Origin: Rhodococcus sp. UNC23MFCrub1.1
Lineage (GTDB): Bacteria > Actinomycetota > Actinomycetes > Mycobacteriales > Mycobacteriaceae
Reading direction: 5' to 3'
DNA length: 64,000 bases
Assembly (NCBI RefSeq): GCF_000686025.1
Contig: NZ_JMLQ01000013.1
Coordinates: 1-64,000 of the forward strand
Each line of letters starts with the position of its first letter. Position 1 is the first letter of the stretch. Below, piece by piece: positions 18,402 through 28,894 of the stretch. A program made the position numbers and the translations under genes. The notes under the pieces are model-generated. The model was not told the origin of the DNA and made no database searches. It saw only the letters and a list, made by a program, of their open reading frames with translations.

Positions 18402-20075
18402 TCACCGGGTGCCGGTCGAGGACGCCCCGACCGGTGCAGTGCTGGTGGTCGCCGACGGCGTCGTGGTCGACGGGGTCGCCGTGGCCGACATCGTCCGCGC
18501 GGACGCAGTACCGGCGGCGGCGAGGATCTGGCCGGCGGGGCGGACGGTGTCGGTGGTCGCGAGCAACTGCGCGCTGCGAGTCAGGACGGCCCCGACCTTC
18601 TCGGCGAGGGTGCTATCGCCGGTGAGGTCGGCGGCGAGGGCGACGATCCACCGGACCGTGAGCTGCACCGGAGTTTCGCCGCGAGTTCCGACCGGGACGC
18701 TGTCGTAGGAGCCGTGCTTGGCGGCGGTGTTCCAGTACGAGGTGTCGGTCACCAGCTTCGCCAGGCCCGCGTTGTCGTCGACGGTGCGGGTGACCTCGTC
18801 GAACGCCACGGCCACGGCGGAGTCGATCGTCGCCGGCGGCACCAATTTCACCGCCGCAGCACCGACCTTGGTGGCGAGGACGGCGAGCGCAGCCGGGGGG
18901 TTCGCCAGCCCGACGGCGGCGAGCTGGCCGATGGTCTCGGCAGTGATGACGTCCTTGGCGACGGTGATCGCCGCCCCGATCGCCATGCCGGCGATCTTGG
19001 TGACCGCGCCGACCGCTTCGTCGACGGCCTCGCCGTCGGTGACGGCGGTTGGGTCGGAGTACTTCGCCATCTTCCCCAGCACCGTCTCCGATGCGGGGTT
19101 GACCTCGAAACGGCCTGCGCGGGAATCGAAGTCGATGTTGTCGTTGACGGCCGAGGCGCTGGTGAGCAGGGCGGAGCGGCCGACCGCGGCGGAGACGTCG
19201 GTGAGGATGCGCACCGGGTCGCGGGTGTCCATCGAGGACTGCCCGGCAATGTTGGCGACCAGCTTCGCAGCGGGTGCGTCGGCGGGAGTGTCACACGCCA
19301 GATCGCCCGCGGTGCAGTAGGAGGCGACGCGGTCGGCGACGGCGCCGAAGTCCGCGTCGGCGGGGTCGGGGGCGATGCCGCCTCCGGCCGGCGGTGACGC
19401 GGCGACCGCGGGCGCGAGCTGGACGGACTGCACCGCGTCCCCGGTGGTGCCCGGGGCCGGTGCCGGTGCGCGGTCACCGCCGCCGAGGACGGGTTCTCCC
19501 TGGCCGCGGGTGGGGTCGGAGAACAGGGCGCCGCCGGCGAACCGGTCGGCGTCGATGGGGCCGGTTCCGGCGCCGATCTCGCGGATGACCTCGGAGGCGA
19601 TCTGCCCGCCCTGCGAGTAGCCGGAGACGAACACCCTGGTGCCGGGGCACTTCTCGGCAATGTCGCCGATCATGGTGGTGGCGTTGTCGATGCCGGTCTG
19701 CACGGACGCCGCGTAGGTGTCGGCGCTGCGGTCGCCGGGCTTGCCGCCGAACGATGCCGGGTAGGGAACGTAGCTGCGCTCCAGTGCGGGTTCAGTGCCG
19801 GAGTTGGCGTCGCGCATGGCCGGGACGGTGAGCCGGGAGAAGAACCCGGAATCGGCGTCGGGTGAGCTGTTCTCGTCGATTTCGGTGGTGCCGGGGACGA
19901 CGAGAAGGTGCAGCGGTGCGCACCCGTCAGCGGCGGGTGCCGTGGTGGTCGGGGTGGCGGTGGCGGTCCCGGTTGTTGCGAGGAGTCCGATGACTGCGAG
20001 TAGCCATGCCATGACCGCGTGAAGGAGTAGGCGGGGTGGGCGCGCCGGTGGTGCGGCGTTGCGTGTGGCGGTCAT
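18402..20075 (-). CDS. Cutinase-family secreted hydrolase with a large insertion
   Basis: 557 residues with a signal peptide (VMAWLLAVIGLLATTGTATA). The cutinase core is visible: LHLLVVPGTTE, the nucleophile S154 in GYSQGG and the acid D258 in YCTAGDLACD. In ordinary cutinases the catalytic histidine follows within about 15 residues; here no histidine occurs until H454 (AAKHGSYDSVP), after about 190 mostly helical residues. Either the insertion displaces the triad His, or the enzyme is inactive. Cutinases cleave lipid or polymer esters. One in a conjugation operon may loosen the mycolate layer of donor or recipient. Confidence 0.85.
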   Translation of the reverse strand: MTATRNAAPPARPPRLLLHAVMAWLLAVIGLLATTGTATATPTTTAPAADGCAPLHLLVVPGTTEIDENSSPDADSGFFSRLTVPAMRDANSGTEPALERSYVPYPASFGGKPGDRSADTYAASVQTGIDNATTMIGDIAEKCPGTRVFVSGYSQGGQIASEVIREIGAGTGPIDADRFAGGALFSDPTRGQGEPVLGGGDRAPAPAPGTTGDAVQSVQLAPAVAASPPAGGGIAPDPADADFGAVADRVASYCTAGDLACDTPADAPAAKLVANIAGQSSMDTRDPVRILTDVSAAVGRSALLTSASAVNDNIDFDSRAGRFEVNPASETVLGKMAKYSDPTAVTDGEAVDEAVGAVTKIAGMAIGAAITVAKDVITAETIGQLAAVGLANPPAALAVLATKVGAAAVKLVPPATIDSAVAVAFDEVTRTVDDNAGLAKLVTDTSYWNTAAKHGSYDSVPVGTRGETPVQLTVRWIVALAADLTGDSTLAEKVGAVLTRSAQLLATTDTVRPAGQILAAAGTASARTMSATATPSTTTPSATTSTAPVGASSTGTR

Positions 20076-23304: not shown

Positions 23305-24348
23305 TCACGACTGCCGCCGGACCGGAATCCTCGCCAGACCATCATGTGACGTCGGCGCGGACGCGGGTAGCACAGCCAGGACCAGACGCTCGCTCAACTG
23401 TCCTGGGTAGGGCCTGAGCTCTACTTCCGTACGTTGCCACCGCCAATCAGCTCCGTTCTTGGCCCTGATGCGAACGATCGCGACGACGGGTCGATAGGTA
23501 GATCGCGACCACTGGTCGAGGGCATCGGTCAAGACCGATCGATCTTCCTCGTGGACAACATCGCGTCCGCTGGCGACGTCTCTCCATCGGACCCATTCCG
23601 GCGCATCCGTCAGCCACATTGTCAGGATTCCGGTATGCGCATCGAACACCGCCATCCGGGTGCCCGCGCTCTCTAATGCGCTGGGTAGGCCCAGTTCGAG
23701 CAGCGTCGGCTTGTCAGGTGGAGTCGTGTCGGTGATGTCGTGCCACAGCAGTCGCAGGCCGACGTTGCCGGGGTCAGTGCGCCCCTTGCCCCAGCAGTGC
23801 CAACGCATGATGTGCCCGTCAGCGTGTAGGACGGACATCGGTCCTTCCCAACTTTTGCCATGCTCCGGGTTCAACGCCGCGGCGAACAGCGACTCCGAAT
23901 CATCGAACTTGACAGCTTTGGCGTAGTACTCGGCGGGCGTGCGTTCTGGGACGTGATCGGCGGGGTTCACACCGGACATCAAGGCCGCCTCGAGTGACTG
24001 GGCGATTACCGTGCGTTGCAGCAACCACGAGATTCCCGAAACGATACGAGGTGGGTCAGGAACGATCCCGGACTCGCCCAACCACAGCTGAGCGCCATGT
24101 GCCTCGCCGGAGGGCCCCAACACCGGAACCACGCGGATCAGAATCAAGCCGCGGCGGCTCGCGACACGGTGCTCTTGGATCTGCCGAGAGTGGCATGCGT
24201 GTGTGATGAGAGAGGGCAAATCGATGTCCGGAGCGGGAGAGAGGCGGTCGACCTTTGTCCAATTCCGGGTCCTCCCACCCGAACTGACGACCGTCATTAC
24301 TCCCGGTGTAAGAGTCTCGATCAAGTGCCAACTGTTCAGAACATCCAT
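23305..24348 (-). CDS. PAS/GAF-like protein next to P450 (DUF5593-like)
   Basis: 347 residues, no membrane helix. It looks like two sensory-type domains: one at about 1-130 (WHLIETLTPGVMTVVSSGG, RRGLILIRVVPVLGP) and a PAS-like one from about 230 (GTRMAVFDAHTGILTMWLTD, WRWQRTEVELRPYPG). The layout resembles DUF5593-type proteins of Rhodococcus and mycobacteria, as I remember them. It lies 39 bases downstream of the P450 gene on the same strand and could sense the substrate or the redox state. Function not established. Confidence 0.6.
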   Translation of the reverse strand: MDVLNSWHLIETLTPGVMTVVSSGGRTRNWTKVDRLSPAPDIDLPSLITHACHSRQIQEHRVASRRGLILIRVVPVLGPSGEAHGAQLWLGESGIVPDPPRIVSGISWLLQRTVIAQSLEAALMSGVNPADHVPERTPAEYYAKAVKFDDSESLFAAALNPEHGKSWEGPMSVLHADGHIMRWHCWGKGRTDPGNVGLRLLWHDITDTTPPDKPTLLELGLPSALESAGTRMAVFDAHTGILTMWLTDAPEWVRWRDVASGRDVVHEEDRSVLTDALDQWSRSTYRPVVAIVRIRAKNGADWRWQRTEVELRPYPGQLSERLVLAVLPASAPTSHDGLARIPVRRQS

Positions 24349-24387
24349 GCGCGAACTCCCCCGACTAGGCGAGACCAGACGTTACAT

Positions 24388-25815
24388 CTAATCGCATCGT
24401 GAGAGCCGCAATCGAACCCCGTGGGGTCGCAAAGTGATGGCCTCCCGCACGTCGAGCTCGTACGTGCCGTCAGGTGTCACGTTGTACCGCCGGACAATGG
24501 ACGCGAGGGCCAACACCGCCTCGTGGAGGGCAAACTGACGACCGATGCACGCTCTCAAACCTGTCCCCCACGGCTTGTAGACACGATCGGGGGCATGGTC
24601 CATCCTGCCGGCCATGAACCGATCGGGGTCGAAGCTTCTGGCGTCTGTTCCCCAGGATGCAGATCGATGTACCTGTGGAAGGAGAACGAAGACCCATCCT
24701 TCGGGAATCTCGTAGCCGCCCAGTTCAGCCGGGCCGCGTTCACGCGCCTTACGGAAGTAACCGGGTGCAGCGGGCCAGAGACGCAGCGTCTCGTCGACCA
24801 CTCGGCGAACGCGACGGAGCTTCGGTACGTCGTCGAACTCGACCGCGCCGCCACCGGGAGCGACGTGTTTCACCTCTTCCCGCAGAGACTGCAGCAGACC
24901 CGAGTCACGACTCAAGAAATGCAGTGCGAACGCCATGGTGGACGCAGTCGTCTCGTTCCCAGCAACGAGGAAGGTGATGATTTGGTTCTTGATGTTGCCG
25001 ATGCTGAGACCACTCCCAGTCGTGGGGTCGACCGTCTCGAACATGTGTTGTAGCAGGTCCGAGTTGGCGTTGACGCCGGAACGGCGAGCGAGAATTCGGC
25101 TGTCGACGAGTGAGTCGACAGTATCCCGGATCAGTGCCAGATCCTGCCCGTGTTGCCGCGCGGCGGATCGACCTGTGACGGCTCTGACCACGGGGACGTC
25201 GTTCGATGACCGATTGACGTAGCCAAGCGCCCGGGCAATTGCTTCTGCGAACGGCACGTTGCCGTCGAACGTCCCGAAGTTGTGTGACAGGGCGCACCGC
25301 CCAATCACATCGAATGCCAGTTTCGAGCACTCGTCGTACGCATCGACCGATTTGGAAGCGGACGAGTTGTCCCAGGTTGTCAGCAATCCGTCGATGGAAT
25401 CCTGCATCGATTGGTGGTAGCGGCGCATCGCGGCCTTGTTGAAGGCTGGGCCGAGTACCGAATGACCCAGTTGCCAGTTGGGTTCGGAGTTGAATGCTGT
25501 GAACAGCCCGTCGCCCGCGATGCCACGTAGCTTGCGGTGCGGGAGGCCGAGAAACTTGGTCCAAACCTTTTCGTCGTTGACCTCGTTGACCAGAATCGGA
25601 TCAGACACCACCACGAGTCGATGTCCGAATATTTTGCGTTCGTAGATACCCCCGAGCTCATCGGCCATCTTCATCTCGCGCTGCACAGGCTTGGATGAGT
25701 CGACGCTGAGCAGATCCCCCGCGATGGGAAGCCGGAACTTCGGATGCGGGAGGCGAGCGAGCGGTGGTCCAGCTTGTTCCATGGAGACAGTGTCCCTCAG
25801 GACGGTGCCGGTCAT
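24388..25815 (-). CDS. Cytochrome P450, CYP102-like, without reductase domain
   Basis: 475 residues. Signatures: I-helix AGNETTAS, K-helix ETLR, PERF-like FDPDRF, and haem loop PWGTGLRACIGR with Cys423 as ligand. The N-terminal KPVQREMKMADELGGIYE closely resembles CYP102 (BM3-type) fatty-acid hydroxylases, but the chain ends just after the haem domain, so it needs a separate reductase. None is encoded beside it; the flavin-reductase-like gene at 1133 is far away and membrane-bound. The start may be 25815 or the internal ATG at 25782; neither has a strong ribosome site. Confidence 0.9.
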   Translation of the reverse strand: MTGTVLRDTVSMEQAGPPLARLPHPKFRLPIAGDLLSVDSSKPVQREMKMADELGGIYERKIFGHRLVVVSDPILVNEVNDEKVWTKFLGLPHRKLRGIAGDGLFTAFNSEPNWQLGHSVLGPAFNKAAMRRYHQSMQDSIDGLLTTWDNSSASKSVDAYDECSKLAFDVIGRCALSHNFGTFDGNVPFAEAIARALGYVNRSSNDVPVVRAVTGRSAARQHGQDLALIRDTVDSLVDSRILARRSGVNANSDLLQHMFETVDPTTGSGLSIGNIKNQIITFLVAGNETTASTMAFALHFLSRDSGLLQSLREEVKHVAPGGGAVEFDDVPKLRRVRRVVDETLRLWPAAPGYFRKARERGPAELGGYEIPEGWVFVLLPQVHRSASWGTDARSFDPDRFMAGRMDHAPDRVYKPWGTGLRACIGRQFALHEAVLALASIVRRYNVTPDGTYELDVREAITLRPHGVRLRLSRCD

Positions 25816-25924
25816 TTTGGGTCGCGATTACGGCGTGTCCTCCCCGCGCGGGGCCTGTCGCAGGGCAGTATCGGGCTTGCCGTCCGTGGTTGTTTGCACC
25901 GAACCCGACAAGGAGGTACACCTC

Positions 25925-26125
25925 ATGGGACGTCCCCATCTCGGTCCGACTACTCGTCTCGGATCAGTCCCGACGGAGGTCTACGCGGCGCTGACCGCGG
26001 CGGCAGCACAGCACGGCTACAGGGAGACGACGGCTTACGTCTCGGACATCCTCAGTCTTCATGTCGGCCGGCCCGACAAATTACGCGGCGCACTCAGCCA
26101 GGAGGTGCTGCCACTGACGGGCTAG
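25925..26125 (+). CDS. Small ribbon-helix-helix (CopG-like) protein, copy 1
   Basis: 66 residues. The start follows a perfect AAGGAGGT by seven bases. The sequence has the ribbon-helix-helix pattern (RLGSVPTEVYAALTAAAAQH, then TTAYVSDILSLHVGRPD) and ends EVLPLTG. It is paralogous to the gene at 26501-26743: both have a GRP-L opening and a LP-TG ending, and each is followed by the same multi-hairpin element. CopG-type proteins repress replication genes on plasmids. Its position two genes before the replication initiator suggests copy-number control. Confidence 0.75.
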   Translation: MGRPHLGPTTRLGSVPTEVYAALTAAAAQHGYRETTAYVSDILSLHVGRPDKLRGALSQEVLPLTG

Positions 26126-26184
26126 TTCGGCTACTGAAATCTGCGCAGCATCTACGTGTGCAGAACATACGAGCGAGCCAACAA

Positions 26185-26316
26185 ACACCGAACCCCCCGA
26201 CCCGTGGGCCGAGGGGTTCGGTGTCAAGGACGAAGGGCCAACTTCGTCCTCGGGTGCAGCTCACCAACTGAAGGGACAGACTGTGTCGGTCTGGTCTCAG
26301 GGTACAACACACCCTG
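26185..26316. repeat. Multi-hairpin element, copy 1
   Basis: Four stems in order: a 12-bp stem ACACCGAACCCC (26185-26196) with its partner at 26213-26224; AGGACGAAG (26227-26235) with CTTCGTCCT (26242-26250); CAGAC (26277-26281) with GTCTG (26289-26293); CAGGGT (26298-26303) with ACCCTG (26311-26316). The block GGTCTCAGGGTACA and a preceding AAGGGAC are shared with copy 2. The first stem may act as a terminator (on the minus strand it is followed by TTTGTT). The element could be a minus-strand antisense RNA or a plus-strand leader; strand is undecided. Confidence 0.6.
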
Positions 26317-26500
26317 ATGCACGTTCAGGAAGTAACTGCCGTGTCTCCGCGCCCACCGCACGGGCGGTTCCTCACGTACCCGTCCAACGCCTGGGTCTCG
26401 TCACGTGGGGTGTGTTGCCTTGACACGGCTATCTGAAAATCTCTCGAGGTGTCGGCGTGTCGCAGCACACCCGACGGGGCCTCGAGGCAACATTCCTGCC

Positions 26501-26743
26501 GTGCCCAGGCCACCGAGAACACGTCCAATAGGGCGCCCACAGCTGCCCTATCGACCGGTACAGATGAACACCAAAGTGCACCCCCAGGTCAAGCAACAGC
26601 TCACCGCACTGGCTGCGGAGCGAGGAATCACGTTGGGAGCTCTGCTCGCCGAGCTAACCGCGCGCGCCGCAGGGAGCACTGTCGAAGAGTTGACTGCAGG
26701 TGGGTTCGACCACAACCCGCAGGAGCTGCCGATGACGGGTTGA
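26501..26743 (+). CDS. Small ribbon-helix-helix (CopG-like) protein, copy 2
   Basis: 80 residues from the GTG at 26501; an ATG at 26564 is an alternative. The GTG is preferred because the resulting N-terminus (IGRPQLPYRPVQMNTK) aligns with GRPHL of the copy at 25925. Core: VHPQVKQQLTALAAERGITL, then LGALLAELTARAAG, ending ELPMTG. It is followed by the second multi-hairpin element and then the replication gene. It is probably a paired repressor with copy 1, perhaps forming heterodimers. Confidence 0.6.
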   Translation: MPRPPRTRPIGRPQLPYRPVQMNTKVHPQVKQQLTALAAERGITLGALLAELTARAAGSTVEELTAGGFDHNPQELPMTG

Positions 26744-26810
26744 TCGCTCTGACACAACGCTCGTTCGGACGAGAACGCCGACGAGCTTCATAAAACAGCA
26801 CCGACATGAC

Positions 26811-26936
26811 GAAGCCCCCGGCGGGGCGGCCGAGGGCTTCAAGGTCATTAGGAACGAGCGGGAACTCGAACCTCGGTGCTGCTAATCCCCGAAGGGACTG
26901 TCTTGCTGGACAGGTCTCAGGGTACATGCTGCCCTG
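26811..26936. repeat. Multi-hairpin element, copy 2
   Basis: Same order of stems as copy 1: GAAGCCC (26811-26817) with GGGCTTC (26834-26840); GGAACGAG (26851-26858) with CTCGAACC (26865-26872, two mismatches); CTGTC (26898-26902) with GACAG (26909-26913); CAGGG (26918-26922) with CCCTG (26932-26936). The third stem differs in sequence from copy 1 (CAGAC/GTCTG there) but still pairs, a compensatory change that supports a functional RNA fold. It ends 38 bases before the replication-initiator ATG, which has no ribosome site of its own. Confidence 0.6.
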
Positions 26937-26974
26937 ATCAAGCTTCAAGTATCGATGCACGTGTCGTGTCGCCG

Positions 26975-28894
26975 ATGTCGGCACCGGACGCTGTGTGGCG
27001 GCGCTTGTCGCCCATGGTGGCGGCGCGCCGGTCCATGCGTTTGTACGACGCGGCGGCGCGGTCCTTCACCTCGTCGCGGGCGCTGACGAGCAAACGGCCG
27101 CTGGTGCCGGCGGCGGTGCCGCTGTTCGCCCACGGGCGTGCGCGGGTGCTCGCGTTGGACTTCGACGCCAAGATGCACGGCGCCGCCGCTGTCGAGGCAG
27201 ACGTGGCACGGGTTCTCGGGTGGTTGACCGAGACTGGTGGCCGCGCGGTCGTCGACATCTCCACCAGCGGCGGCCGCCACGTTCTGGTCCCCTTAGCCCC
27301 GGGCGTCACCGCCGGCGTCACCGAGCTGCGTCCGCTGTTGAATCTGCTGGCCGCTCGCCTGCCGACGTTAGACATTGTTCCGATGACCAACGCCGCGACC
27401 GGATGCATCACCGTCCCCGGCTCCGCGTGCAGAGAAGGCGGGCACCGGCATCTGATCGGTGACCTGGCCACCGCGACCGACACCCTGACCATCGGTTCCG
27501 AGCCTGCGGTCTTGACCCGCCTCGCAGCGCTCCTCGGCGGGCTACCTCACGTCCGCCCGCGCGCCGGGGCTGCGGTGCGCACCGTAGACGACGAGATCCG
27601 GGATACCACGGTCGCCGAGCGTGTCATCGGGAAGGGCCGCGCAGCTCGGTTGCACAGCCGGTTCTGCCGTACCACTCCCCCACCCGCGGCGGTCCGTGTG
27701 TTCGCTGCCACCGGACGACTGGATCGCTCTCGGTGGGCGTCTCGTTCGGAGGCCCGCCAGTCCGTCATCGCGCACGCAGTGCTCTCCGGCAACACTGCCG
27801 ACGACATCGCCGCCCGCCTCGACACACCCGAATGGGCTGGCGTCCGGGACGCGTACGCCCATTACGGCGATGCTCTCGGCGCCGTCCGCCGCGACACCGC
27901 ACGCGCGCTCGAATGGGCTGCGTCGTCGCTGCCCGAACCAGTCCGGCACACGGGGCACAAGCTAATGCACACAGGGGGGGGTAACGACCCGGTCGTTTCG
28001 GGCTGGCTGGCCGCGGCCCAAGACTGGGCCGGTCGGGAATACGCCTCGCGGCGAGATCGGTGGTCCACCCATGCGGTGCTGCAGGCGCTGGCATGGGGTG
28101 CGGCAACAGCAGGAGAAGTCATCGAGGGTGTCCCGGTGGTGGCGTTGGGTGGGCGATCGTTGTCCACAGCTGCAGGGTTGCTGCCGGAGACCACCGTGTG
28201 GTCTGTGCTGGCGCGACTACGGGACACTCCCGGTTCCCCAGTCTTGCTCATCGCCCGCGGCGTCGGCCAGAACGCCGACCGTTACGCCCTGGTACCCCCG
28301 CGAGGAGAAACACCGTCACAGAGCCACCCAGAGCGTCAATTTCGGGCGGCGGGCATCGACACGGTTCACCCGGCCTGGAGCGTCGTCGGTTATCGTCACC
28401 GCGTCCTCTACGACGCGGTCGCGGCCGCCGCCCGTCCCATGACCGTCGACACCCTGCTCCAGCAGGTGCGAATCGGGCGATCCAGCGGTTACGACACCGT
28501 TCTGGATCTGCGCACCGCGGGCTTGCTCACCGTCACCGACGGATATGTCCAGCTCGGCGACGCCGATCTCGACGACATCGCCCACCGCAACGGCCTCGCC
28601 GCCGCACTACGCTCACGCACCGTTCGGCACCGGGCCGAACGCGTCATCTGGCGGCAGTGGCTCGCCGAACGCGAAGCCCAACACATCCCCACTCCCCCAC
28701 CGATGTCCACAGCCGCCGTCATCGTCGACGACGGCATCGCACCTCCCGACGAAGGGCTCTGGGACTCCGTCATGGCCGACGAACCCCGATACCGACCCGA
28801 CAACGACCCCTTCGCGTCATTGAGCACCCTGCTCGACGCAGTCGACCCCATCACCACCGCAGCCAACCAACGCAGCACAACGCTCGGCGCATGA
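26975..28894 (+). CDS. Primase/polymerase-like plasmid replication initiator
   Basis: 639 residues from the ATG at 26975; a GTG at 26966 is also possible, neither with a ribosome site. The N-terminal half has archaeo-eukaryotic primase (PrimPol) motifs: hDhD as LALDFDAK (D62, D64), the sxH motif STSGGRH (H102) and a later acidic TLDIVPM. A middle helical region follows, then winged-helix-like segments (WSVVGYRHRVLYDAVAAAAR, GYDTVLDLRTAGLLTVTDGY). Rep proteins of this kind start replication of Rhodococcus plasmids. Upstream lie the two RHH genes and the structured repeats, consistent with an origin and copy-control region. Confidence 0.75.
   Translation: MSAPDAVWRRLSPMVAARRSMRLYDAAARSFTSSRALTSKRPLVPAAVPLFAHGRARVLALDFDAKMHGAAAVEADVARVLGWLTETGGRAVVDISTSGGRHVLVPLAPGVTAGVTELRPLLNLLAARLPTLDIVPMTNAATGCITVPGSACREGGHRHLIGDLATATDTLTIGSEPAVLTRLAALLGGLPHVRPRAGAAVRTVDDEIRDTTVAERVIGKGRAARLHSRFCRTTPPPAAVRVFAATGRLDRSRWASRSEARQSVIAHAVLSGNTADDIAARLDTPEWAGVRDAYAHYGDALGAVRRDTARALEWAASSLPEPVRHTGHKLMHTGGGNDPVVSGWLAAAQDWAGREYASRRDRWSTHAVLQALAWGAATAGEVIEGVPVVALGGRSLSTAAGLLPETTVWSVLARLRDTPGSPVLLIARGVGQNADRYALVPPRGETPSQSHPERQFRAAGIDTVHPAWSVVGYRHRVLYDAVAAAARPMTVDTLLQQVRIGRSSGYDTVLDLRTAGLLTVTDGYVQLGDADLDDIAHRNGLAAALRSRTVRHRAERVIWRQWLAEREAQHIPTPPPMSTAAVIVDDGIAPPDEGLWDSVMADEPRYRPDNDPFASLSTLLDAVDPITTAANQRSTTLGA

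Follow-up and report, generated by a model that had tools for sequence, protein, structure and literature searches.

A candidate counter-transcribed RNA overlapping the predicted rep start codon in plasmids of Rhodococcus and related bacteria

The stretch of DNA analysed here (the window; 64,000 nt) comprises positions 1 to 64,000 of contig NZ_JMLQ01000013.1 of Rhodococcus sp. UNC23MFCrub1.1, which is 72,622 bases long. Before a predicted replication initiator gene, rep, it carries a tandem pair of units, each made of a small ribbon-helix-helix (RHH) gene and a multi-hairpin element: RHH1 with element 1 (~26185-26328) and RHH2 with element 2 (~26810-26948). The element probably specifies, on the minus strand, a counter-transcribed RNA (ctRNA) that would block Rep translation by pairing with the hairpin loop in which the predicted rep start codon lies. 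The tandem organization, first noticed in a preliminary description of the sequence, holds up: a repeat search of 25500-28500 returned two repeat families at near-equal spacing (26288-26327 versus 26908-26947, 73% identity, spacing 620; and the terminator-like hairpins at 26189-26226 versus 26810-26847, 74% identity, spacing 621), with an RHH gene before each copy. That description had also pointed to a stem altered in sequence that still pairs, CAGAC/GTCTG in copy 1 (26277-26281 with 26289-26293) and CTGTC/GACAG in copy 2 (26898-26902 with 26909-26913), and the same stem covaries over 103 distinct sequences. Recurrence in plasmid records and stem covariation place the pair of elements far beyond chance. 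The features of the locus are as follows (ORF, open reading frame; SL1, the recognition hairpin).

25925-26125, plus strand: RHH1, a CopG/FitA-like ribbon-helix-helix gene (66 aa), with AAGGAGG at 25910-25916; conserved in the related loci L003 and L206
26185-26224, minus strand: terminator-like hairpin of predicted antisense RNA 1 (repeat search, alignment with relatives); L206 has one compensatory stem change, A-T to G-C
26270-26298, plus strand: copy-1 ribosome-site-like GAAGGGA (26270-26276) and SL1 CAGAC/GTCTG with loop GTG (26283-26285), the same in the window, L003 and L206
26283-26423, plus strand: 46-aa ORF from the copy-1 loop GTG
26299-26328, minus strand: antisense promoter-like boxes 1, -10 TACCCT (26304-26299), 18-nt spacer, -35 CTGAAC (26328-26323)
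26564-26743, plus strand: RHH2, a ribbon-helix-helix gene (59 aa) with an Antitox_RHH match
26805-26913, minus strand: predicted counter-transcribed RNA 2, ~105-110 nt, both ends predicted (fold score, boxes, terminator)
26810-26840, minus strand: terminator-like hairpin of predicted antisense RNA 2
26886-26897, minus strand: CCC-UUCG-GGG tetraloop hairpin, whose opposite strand carries the ribosome-site-like GAAGGGA (26891-26897, plus)
26898-26913, plus strand: SL1 recognition hairpin CTGTC-TTGCTG-GACAG, whose loop carries the predicted Rep start TTG (26903-26905)
26903-28894, plus strand: rep, a predicted 663-aa initiator with proposed start TTG and weak similarity to Prim-Pol/LigD-type primase-polymerases and to winged-helix-type proteins
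26918-26936, plus strand: second sense-strand hairpin CAGGG...CCCTG, overlapping the antisense -10
26919-26948, minus strand: antisense promoter-like boxes 2, -10 TACCCT (26924-26919), 18-nt spacer, -35 TTGAAG (26948-26943)

Three blastn queries, run at E limits of 1e-5, 0.01 and 0.1, matched the element in whole or in part in 76, 121 and 162 of 72,556 plasmid records, respectively, with hosts in Rhodococcus, Gordonia, Mycobacterium, Prescottella and Mycolicibacterium and, once each, in Cryobacterium, Dietzia and Tomitella. The covariance-model search named in the preliminary description, for which a minus-strand model of 52 positions was built in this analysis, found further copies near rep genes: 99 of 401 genomes of the GTDB family match at E ≤ 1e-7, the stems covary and the association with rep is kept. 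Within the genus the element was detected in 22 of 37 genomes at E ≤ 1e-3 (17 of these at E ≤ 5e-9), within the order in 34 of 397 at E ≤ 1e-3 (20 of these at E ≤ 4e-8), and in a phylum sample in six of 396 at E ≤ 1e-4, four of them in the family, one of those four at chance level. Genome matches below ~24 bits are mostly chance by eye, and three such matches were rejected at phylum level, two at 22-23 bits from outside the family and one at 22.5 bits from within it (G123). Among phages, blastn matches (15 records, E ≤ 1) span the terminator hairpin only, and tblastn with one helix-turn-helix-type Rep gave no match; in a viral collection the exact core pattern occurs in five contigs (L201-L205), which are possibly plasmids or phage-plasmids. 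No Rfam family reached its gathering cut-off in the window or in 20 relative loci, and at E ≤ 10 the region 26100-27000 gave four matches, none relevant and none to a plasmid ctRNA family. A description of the element was not found in the open-access literature searched, so that the earlier statement that no described family has this form stands for Rfam 15 and for that literature; the kind of system, a counter-transcribed RNA with a CopG-like gene, is already known.

The structure is supported by covariation. Altogether 174 elements were fetched, of which 14 failed the anchor pattern (several with GCC for TCT) and two were mis-anchored; the remaining 158 were parsed, and two more were dropped for the stem-arm, upstream-RHH and co-residence tests, leaving 156. 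In an alignment of 104 matches (103 distinct), 88.9% of cells pair, and the whole structure contains 76 double-change cells, compared with 17.3 ± 3.5 after shuffling (0 of 500 shuffles as high) and at most 27 in controls with a slid structure; SL1 shows two-sided changes at all five pairs. This alignment was fitted to the covariance model and leans towards structure, and the arms were therefore also tested without the model: there were 24 distinct stems in 83 distinct elements, and none of 2000 arm shuffles paired as well as the real arms. Among the first 23 sequences there were eight double-change cells versus 1.6 shuffled, and three pairs with two-sided changes, a number reached in 46 of 500 shuffles.

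Read on the sense strand, GAAGGGA is closely followed by an NTG codon within the SL1 loop, and in 151 of the 158 parsed elements this codon lies 12 nt before the TCT of TCTCAGGGTA. In 133 of the 151 the codon heads a frame of at least 300 codons, including frames of that length still open where the fetched piece ends; three others run off the piece earlier and 15 are not long. These counts include some plasmids twice and slightly favour the start codon, since the anchor choice weighted NTG at -12 when several anchors were possible; a per-position frame table, limited to NTG elements, was not used as start-codon evidence. By eye, GAAGGGA is ribosome-site-like and lies at a normal distance upstream of the loop codon. 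The Rep of the window is predicted to start at TTG 26903, with the N-terminus M-L-D-R-S-Q-G-T; the preliminary description had missed this start and had stated that the rep start has no ribosome site, which was not borne out, the candidate TTG lying inside the element, not downstream of it, behind GAAGGGA (26891-26897). Two of 16 annotated Reps are annotated from the loop codon (L020:2598 and L022:2524), and the other 14 from further downstream (L003, L004, L006, L009-L012, L014-L016, L018, L019, L206 and L207). Furthermore, 59 of 88 distinct elements have TTG as their loop codon, compared with a TTG start in two of 58 other annotated genes of the same plasmids. Behind C, the TTG loop codon gives CUUG, a loop that fits the YUNR U-turn motif (PMC4485353); the TTG excess is as expected if CUUG were favoured as a U-turn loop.

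Could the DNA merely encode a conserved N-terminal peptide of Rep, M-x-D-R-S-Q-G-T/S? The peptide is indeed common to the Rep families, and the frame is kept. Conservation, however, reaches upstream of the start codon (CCCC-GAAGGGA and the terminator), and the paired substitutions of the stem alter residues 3-4 (for example DR, DW, EC, GT and VW). In addition, serine codon 5 is TCT in 111 of 113 cases, a bias for which the anchor partly selects, whereas TCT makes up 10% of the serine codons in the same ORFs. We regard conservation at the protein level alone as very unlikely.

The minus strand shows a constant order of signals: a -35 triplet (TTG, CTG or CTA), exactly 18 nt, TANNNT, GAGA, SL1, CCC-UUCG-GGG, a third hairpin and a terminator-like hairpin. 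One of the three triplets occurs at this exact spacing in 54 of 59 distinct elements of a first set, in which the positions flanking the triplet carry little information, and in 110 of 133 of a larger set. The stretch with the predicted copy-2 RNA, 26800-26918, folds with z = -3.35. Of 146 contexts, 101 have the longest T-run on the antisense side of the best-scoring hairpin and 19 have it on the sense side, with the caveat that the best-scoring hairpin is not always the terminator. These signals point to the minus strand as the one most likely to carry the active RNA.

The initiators behind the element differ. Linkage clustering divides the 133 distinct long ORFs into three groups with 78, 41 and 14 members; the profile of group A3, whose similarity to primase-polymerases is weak, and that of group A5 match each other along their length, whereas the profile of group A4, in which two scanned members gave weak helix-turn-helix matches, matches A3 over columns 1-39 only and A5 over columns 1-28 only. 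The shared columns are the N-terminal part encoded by the element, and because the Rep families have only this part in common, the cassette has most likely moved between unrelated initiators. The records of several family members call them rep or replication protein; in 10 Reps, Pfam and NCBIfam gave no rolling-circle Rep match, only weak Prim-Pol and helix-turn-helix matches. The association was also recovered from the Rep side, by a search with the body protein alone (the residues after the shared N-terminus): of 73 matches, 58 were returned as loci, two of which are pieces of one split Rep, and 43 of the 58 loci gave an element match at E ≤ 2e-5. Nine of the 15 loci without a match show a diverged version by eye (L224, L226, L227, L229, L231, L232, L253, L255 and L257), with start codons at -12 or -15 and six of the nine from one genus; L211 is a seemingly truncated rep without the element, and in L218, L219 and L259-L261 no clear version was seen by eye. 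Separately, elements L053 and L087 lie on the same contig (G237:C2) and have identical SL1; the rep that follows is intact in one case and broken in the other.

By Pfam, the RHH2 protein matches Antitox_RHH above the cut-off (E 2.7e-6), and the RHH1 protein matches FitA-like_RHH weakly, below the cut-off (E 0.039). A profile built from upstream ORFs found an RHH-like gene directly upstream and in the same direction in the window and in 110 of 156 elements, part of these matches being among the 56 ORFs that seeded the profile; in the other 46 it was not found by this search. The upstream gene of pMAB23 encodes a CopG-family protein according to RefSeq. If the RHH gene were an antitoxin, the element might control a toxin-antitoxin pair and not rep, a reading suggested by the antitoxin-like Pfam assignment of RHH2 and by a relative labelled 'toxin-antitoxin system' in PLSDB. 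It fits poorly with the finding that the loop codon heads a long Rep-type frame in 133 of 151 elements and with the 46 elements that have no upstream RHH match; moreover, no toxin family was found among the window proteins scanned with Pfam, a scan that did not take in every neighbour. We give this explanation hardly any weight.

In copy 1, the SL1 hairpin, the ribosome-site-like stretch and the promoter-like boxes are identical in the window, L003 and L206; since these signals are unchanged while the DNA behind them has diverged, copy 1 is probably under selection. In the window its loop GTG opens no more than the 46-aa ORF; the corresponding frame of L003 and L206 is longer and extends into RHH2 (~154 codons). 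Copy 1 has thus probably been kept by selection without a rep of its own, either as a second control input on the operon or as a retained remnant. Among the three loci, 26440-26563, before RHH2, is far better conserved than the DNA after copy 1 and carries further inverted repeats, for example ATAGGGC...GCCCTAT. Tandem diverged elements ~500 bp apart also lie before rep in three genomes of another genus (L243, L245 and L247; weak matches of 17-22 bits), with the start codon before rep at -15 in L243 and L247.

Taken together, the promoter-like boxes, the covarying hairpins, the in-frame loop start codon, the terminator bias, the association with rep and the sharing by two Rep families can all be read from the sequence, and we propose that the element is a shared 5' control cassette of the plasmid rep gene. 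A minus-strand promoter inside the first rep codons would produce an RNA of ~105-110 nt, running from SL1 to the hairpin behind the RHH gene. Its 5' stem-loop would be the exact complement of the rep-mRNA stem-loop that presents the start codon, mostly UUG, beside the ribosome-binding stretch. Once the loops had paired and a duplex had formed, the start codon and the ribosome site would be masked and Rep synthesis stopped; more plasmid would then mean more antisense RNA and less Rep. Where present, the CopG-like RHH protein probably represses the operon promoter as a second brake. Transcription, pairing, the translational block, the effect on copy number and the role of the RHH protein are what we infer from these features, and we put the probability that a ctRNA pairs with the start-codon loop and so blocks translation of Rep at roughly 0.8.

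Several observations weigh against this interpretation, and those from the sense strand bear on a specific alternative, in which a sense-strand leader alone acts: its hairpins would gate rep translation, with the start codon placed in a loop and the ribosome site alternately paired, or would attenuate, and no antisense RNA would be made. The candidate start codon and the ribosome-site-like stretch do sit in hairpins, SL1 has a GGGA/TCTC extension whose pairing is better on the sense strand, and that strand folds too, less markedly (leader z -2.31; six cores z -0.90 to -2.45); some of the selection may therefore be on the mRNA. Such a leader would leave unexplained the minus-strand -35-like box at its fixed distance from TANNNT with low-information flanks, the excess of T-runs on the antisense side, and the UUCG-type loop, which is present on the minus strand only, and we consider it unlikely. 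Of the two possibilities raised in the preliminary description, the minus-strand copy-control RNA is thus well supported by the boxes, terminator, UUCG loop, covariation and rep association, and the rep leader is retained as its rival.

Other points against the proposed ctRNA concern individual elements. The 15 loop-codon elements without a long in-frame Rep comprise broken reps, reps in another frame and cases in which none was found; in L130, L131, L165, L180 and L186 the loop codon opens an ORF of 36-46 aa, with the Rep frame in another register just behind, possibly a leader peptide with translational coupling. Copy 1 of the window has no Rep of its own, the RHH gene was not found upstream of every element, and its count includes profile seeds. 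Conservation at the -10 and TCTC positions is partly built in, as the collection model and the anchor already favour them. Outside the window genome, 14 of 153 fetched elements lie on contigs >500 kb and five on contigs >1 Mb (L047, L060, L081, L139 and L140); a few copies may be chromosomal, on chromosome-sized contigs, or belong to integrated plasmids. Finally, co-resident plasmids would be expected to avoid identical SL1 hairpins, and a test of 137 elements in 80 genomes gave no support for incompatibility: 63 of 66 different-contig pairs differ, against ~65 by chance, and identical SL1 occurs in three (G496, G465 and G436) against 0.64 expected by shuffling, slightly opposite to expectation. 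So few identical pairs are expected because SL1 is so diverse; among same-contig pairs, two of 14 have identical SL1.

Comparison with known systems places the proposed RNA among plasmid antisense regulators. For the ctRNA of Corynebacterium glutamicum pGA1, which we take to be Rfam family RF00236, and for the other Rfam antisense families, the window and the 20 loci gave no match at gathering score. The element resembles the CopA/Inc-type RNAs (R1, pIP501 and ColIb-P9) in having a variable recognition loop on a hairpin, and its sense loop CUUG fits YUNR. To our knowledge, the recognition loop of those RNAs is not the rep start codon, whereas in the present element an NTG occupies the loop almost without exception; where this codon is GTG or ATG, no YUNR falls at the same place. 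The pGA1 ctRNA is described as overlapping the rep start (PMC9592669). In pMV158, a small RHH repressor gene, copG, an antisense RNAII gene on the opposite strand and repB form a system of dual control (PMC4485353); the order cop-antisense-rep would be the same here, the antisense gene being predicted from promoter-like boxes, hairpins and a terminator. RNAII is reported to be 48 nt long, complementary to the mRNA immediately upstream of the repB initiation signals, and to recognise its target mainly through a 5' tail, with no U-turn (PMC4485353). In contrast, the RNA predicted here has roughly double that length and the start codon in its recognition loop, and it covers the ribosome-site-like stretch and the predicted start codon rather than an upstream region. 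Unlike the rolling-circle RepB of pMV158, Rep here weakly resembles primase-polymerase or helix-turn-helix proteins. The passages of PMC4378964 that describe the pMyong2 replicon mention no antisense RNA, and PMC7157519 deals with phage RNA origins.

Behind rep lie a ParA-type ATPase gene and a gene for a protein with weak RHH similarity, so that the region looks like the replication and partition region of a plasmid; the top two named-plasmid matches are circular plasmids of Rhodococcus sp. NBC_00297 and NBC_00294. Cytochrome P450 genes, GAF-/PAS-type signalling genes or both recur beside rep (L003, L005, L006, L015, L018-L020, L206 and window 23305-25815), and the window also encodes, on the minus strand at 18402-20075, a protein with cutinase and PE-PPE domain matches.

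More tentatively, and with distinctly less confidence than in the ctRNA itself, the element may be an undescribed portable RNA cassette of mycolic-acid bacteria in which the initiation codon doubles as the antisense recognition loop. NTG and a hypervariable second codon would then set compatibility, two unrelated Rep families could swap or renew their copy control through a ~150-bp 5' end, and tandem cassettes would provide double control. If the proposed ctRNA is real, it would explain how copy number is controlled in many plasmids of Rhodococcus, Gordonia and Mycobacterium relatives, among them the sequenced plasmids pKB1, pREC1, pRECF1, pMAB23 and pRErm46, and a different start codon would be proposed for many annotated Rep proteins. 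The covariance model would mark such replicons where the Rep has no recognisable name, and compatibility groups in these bacteria would become directly testable.

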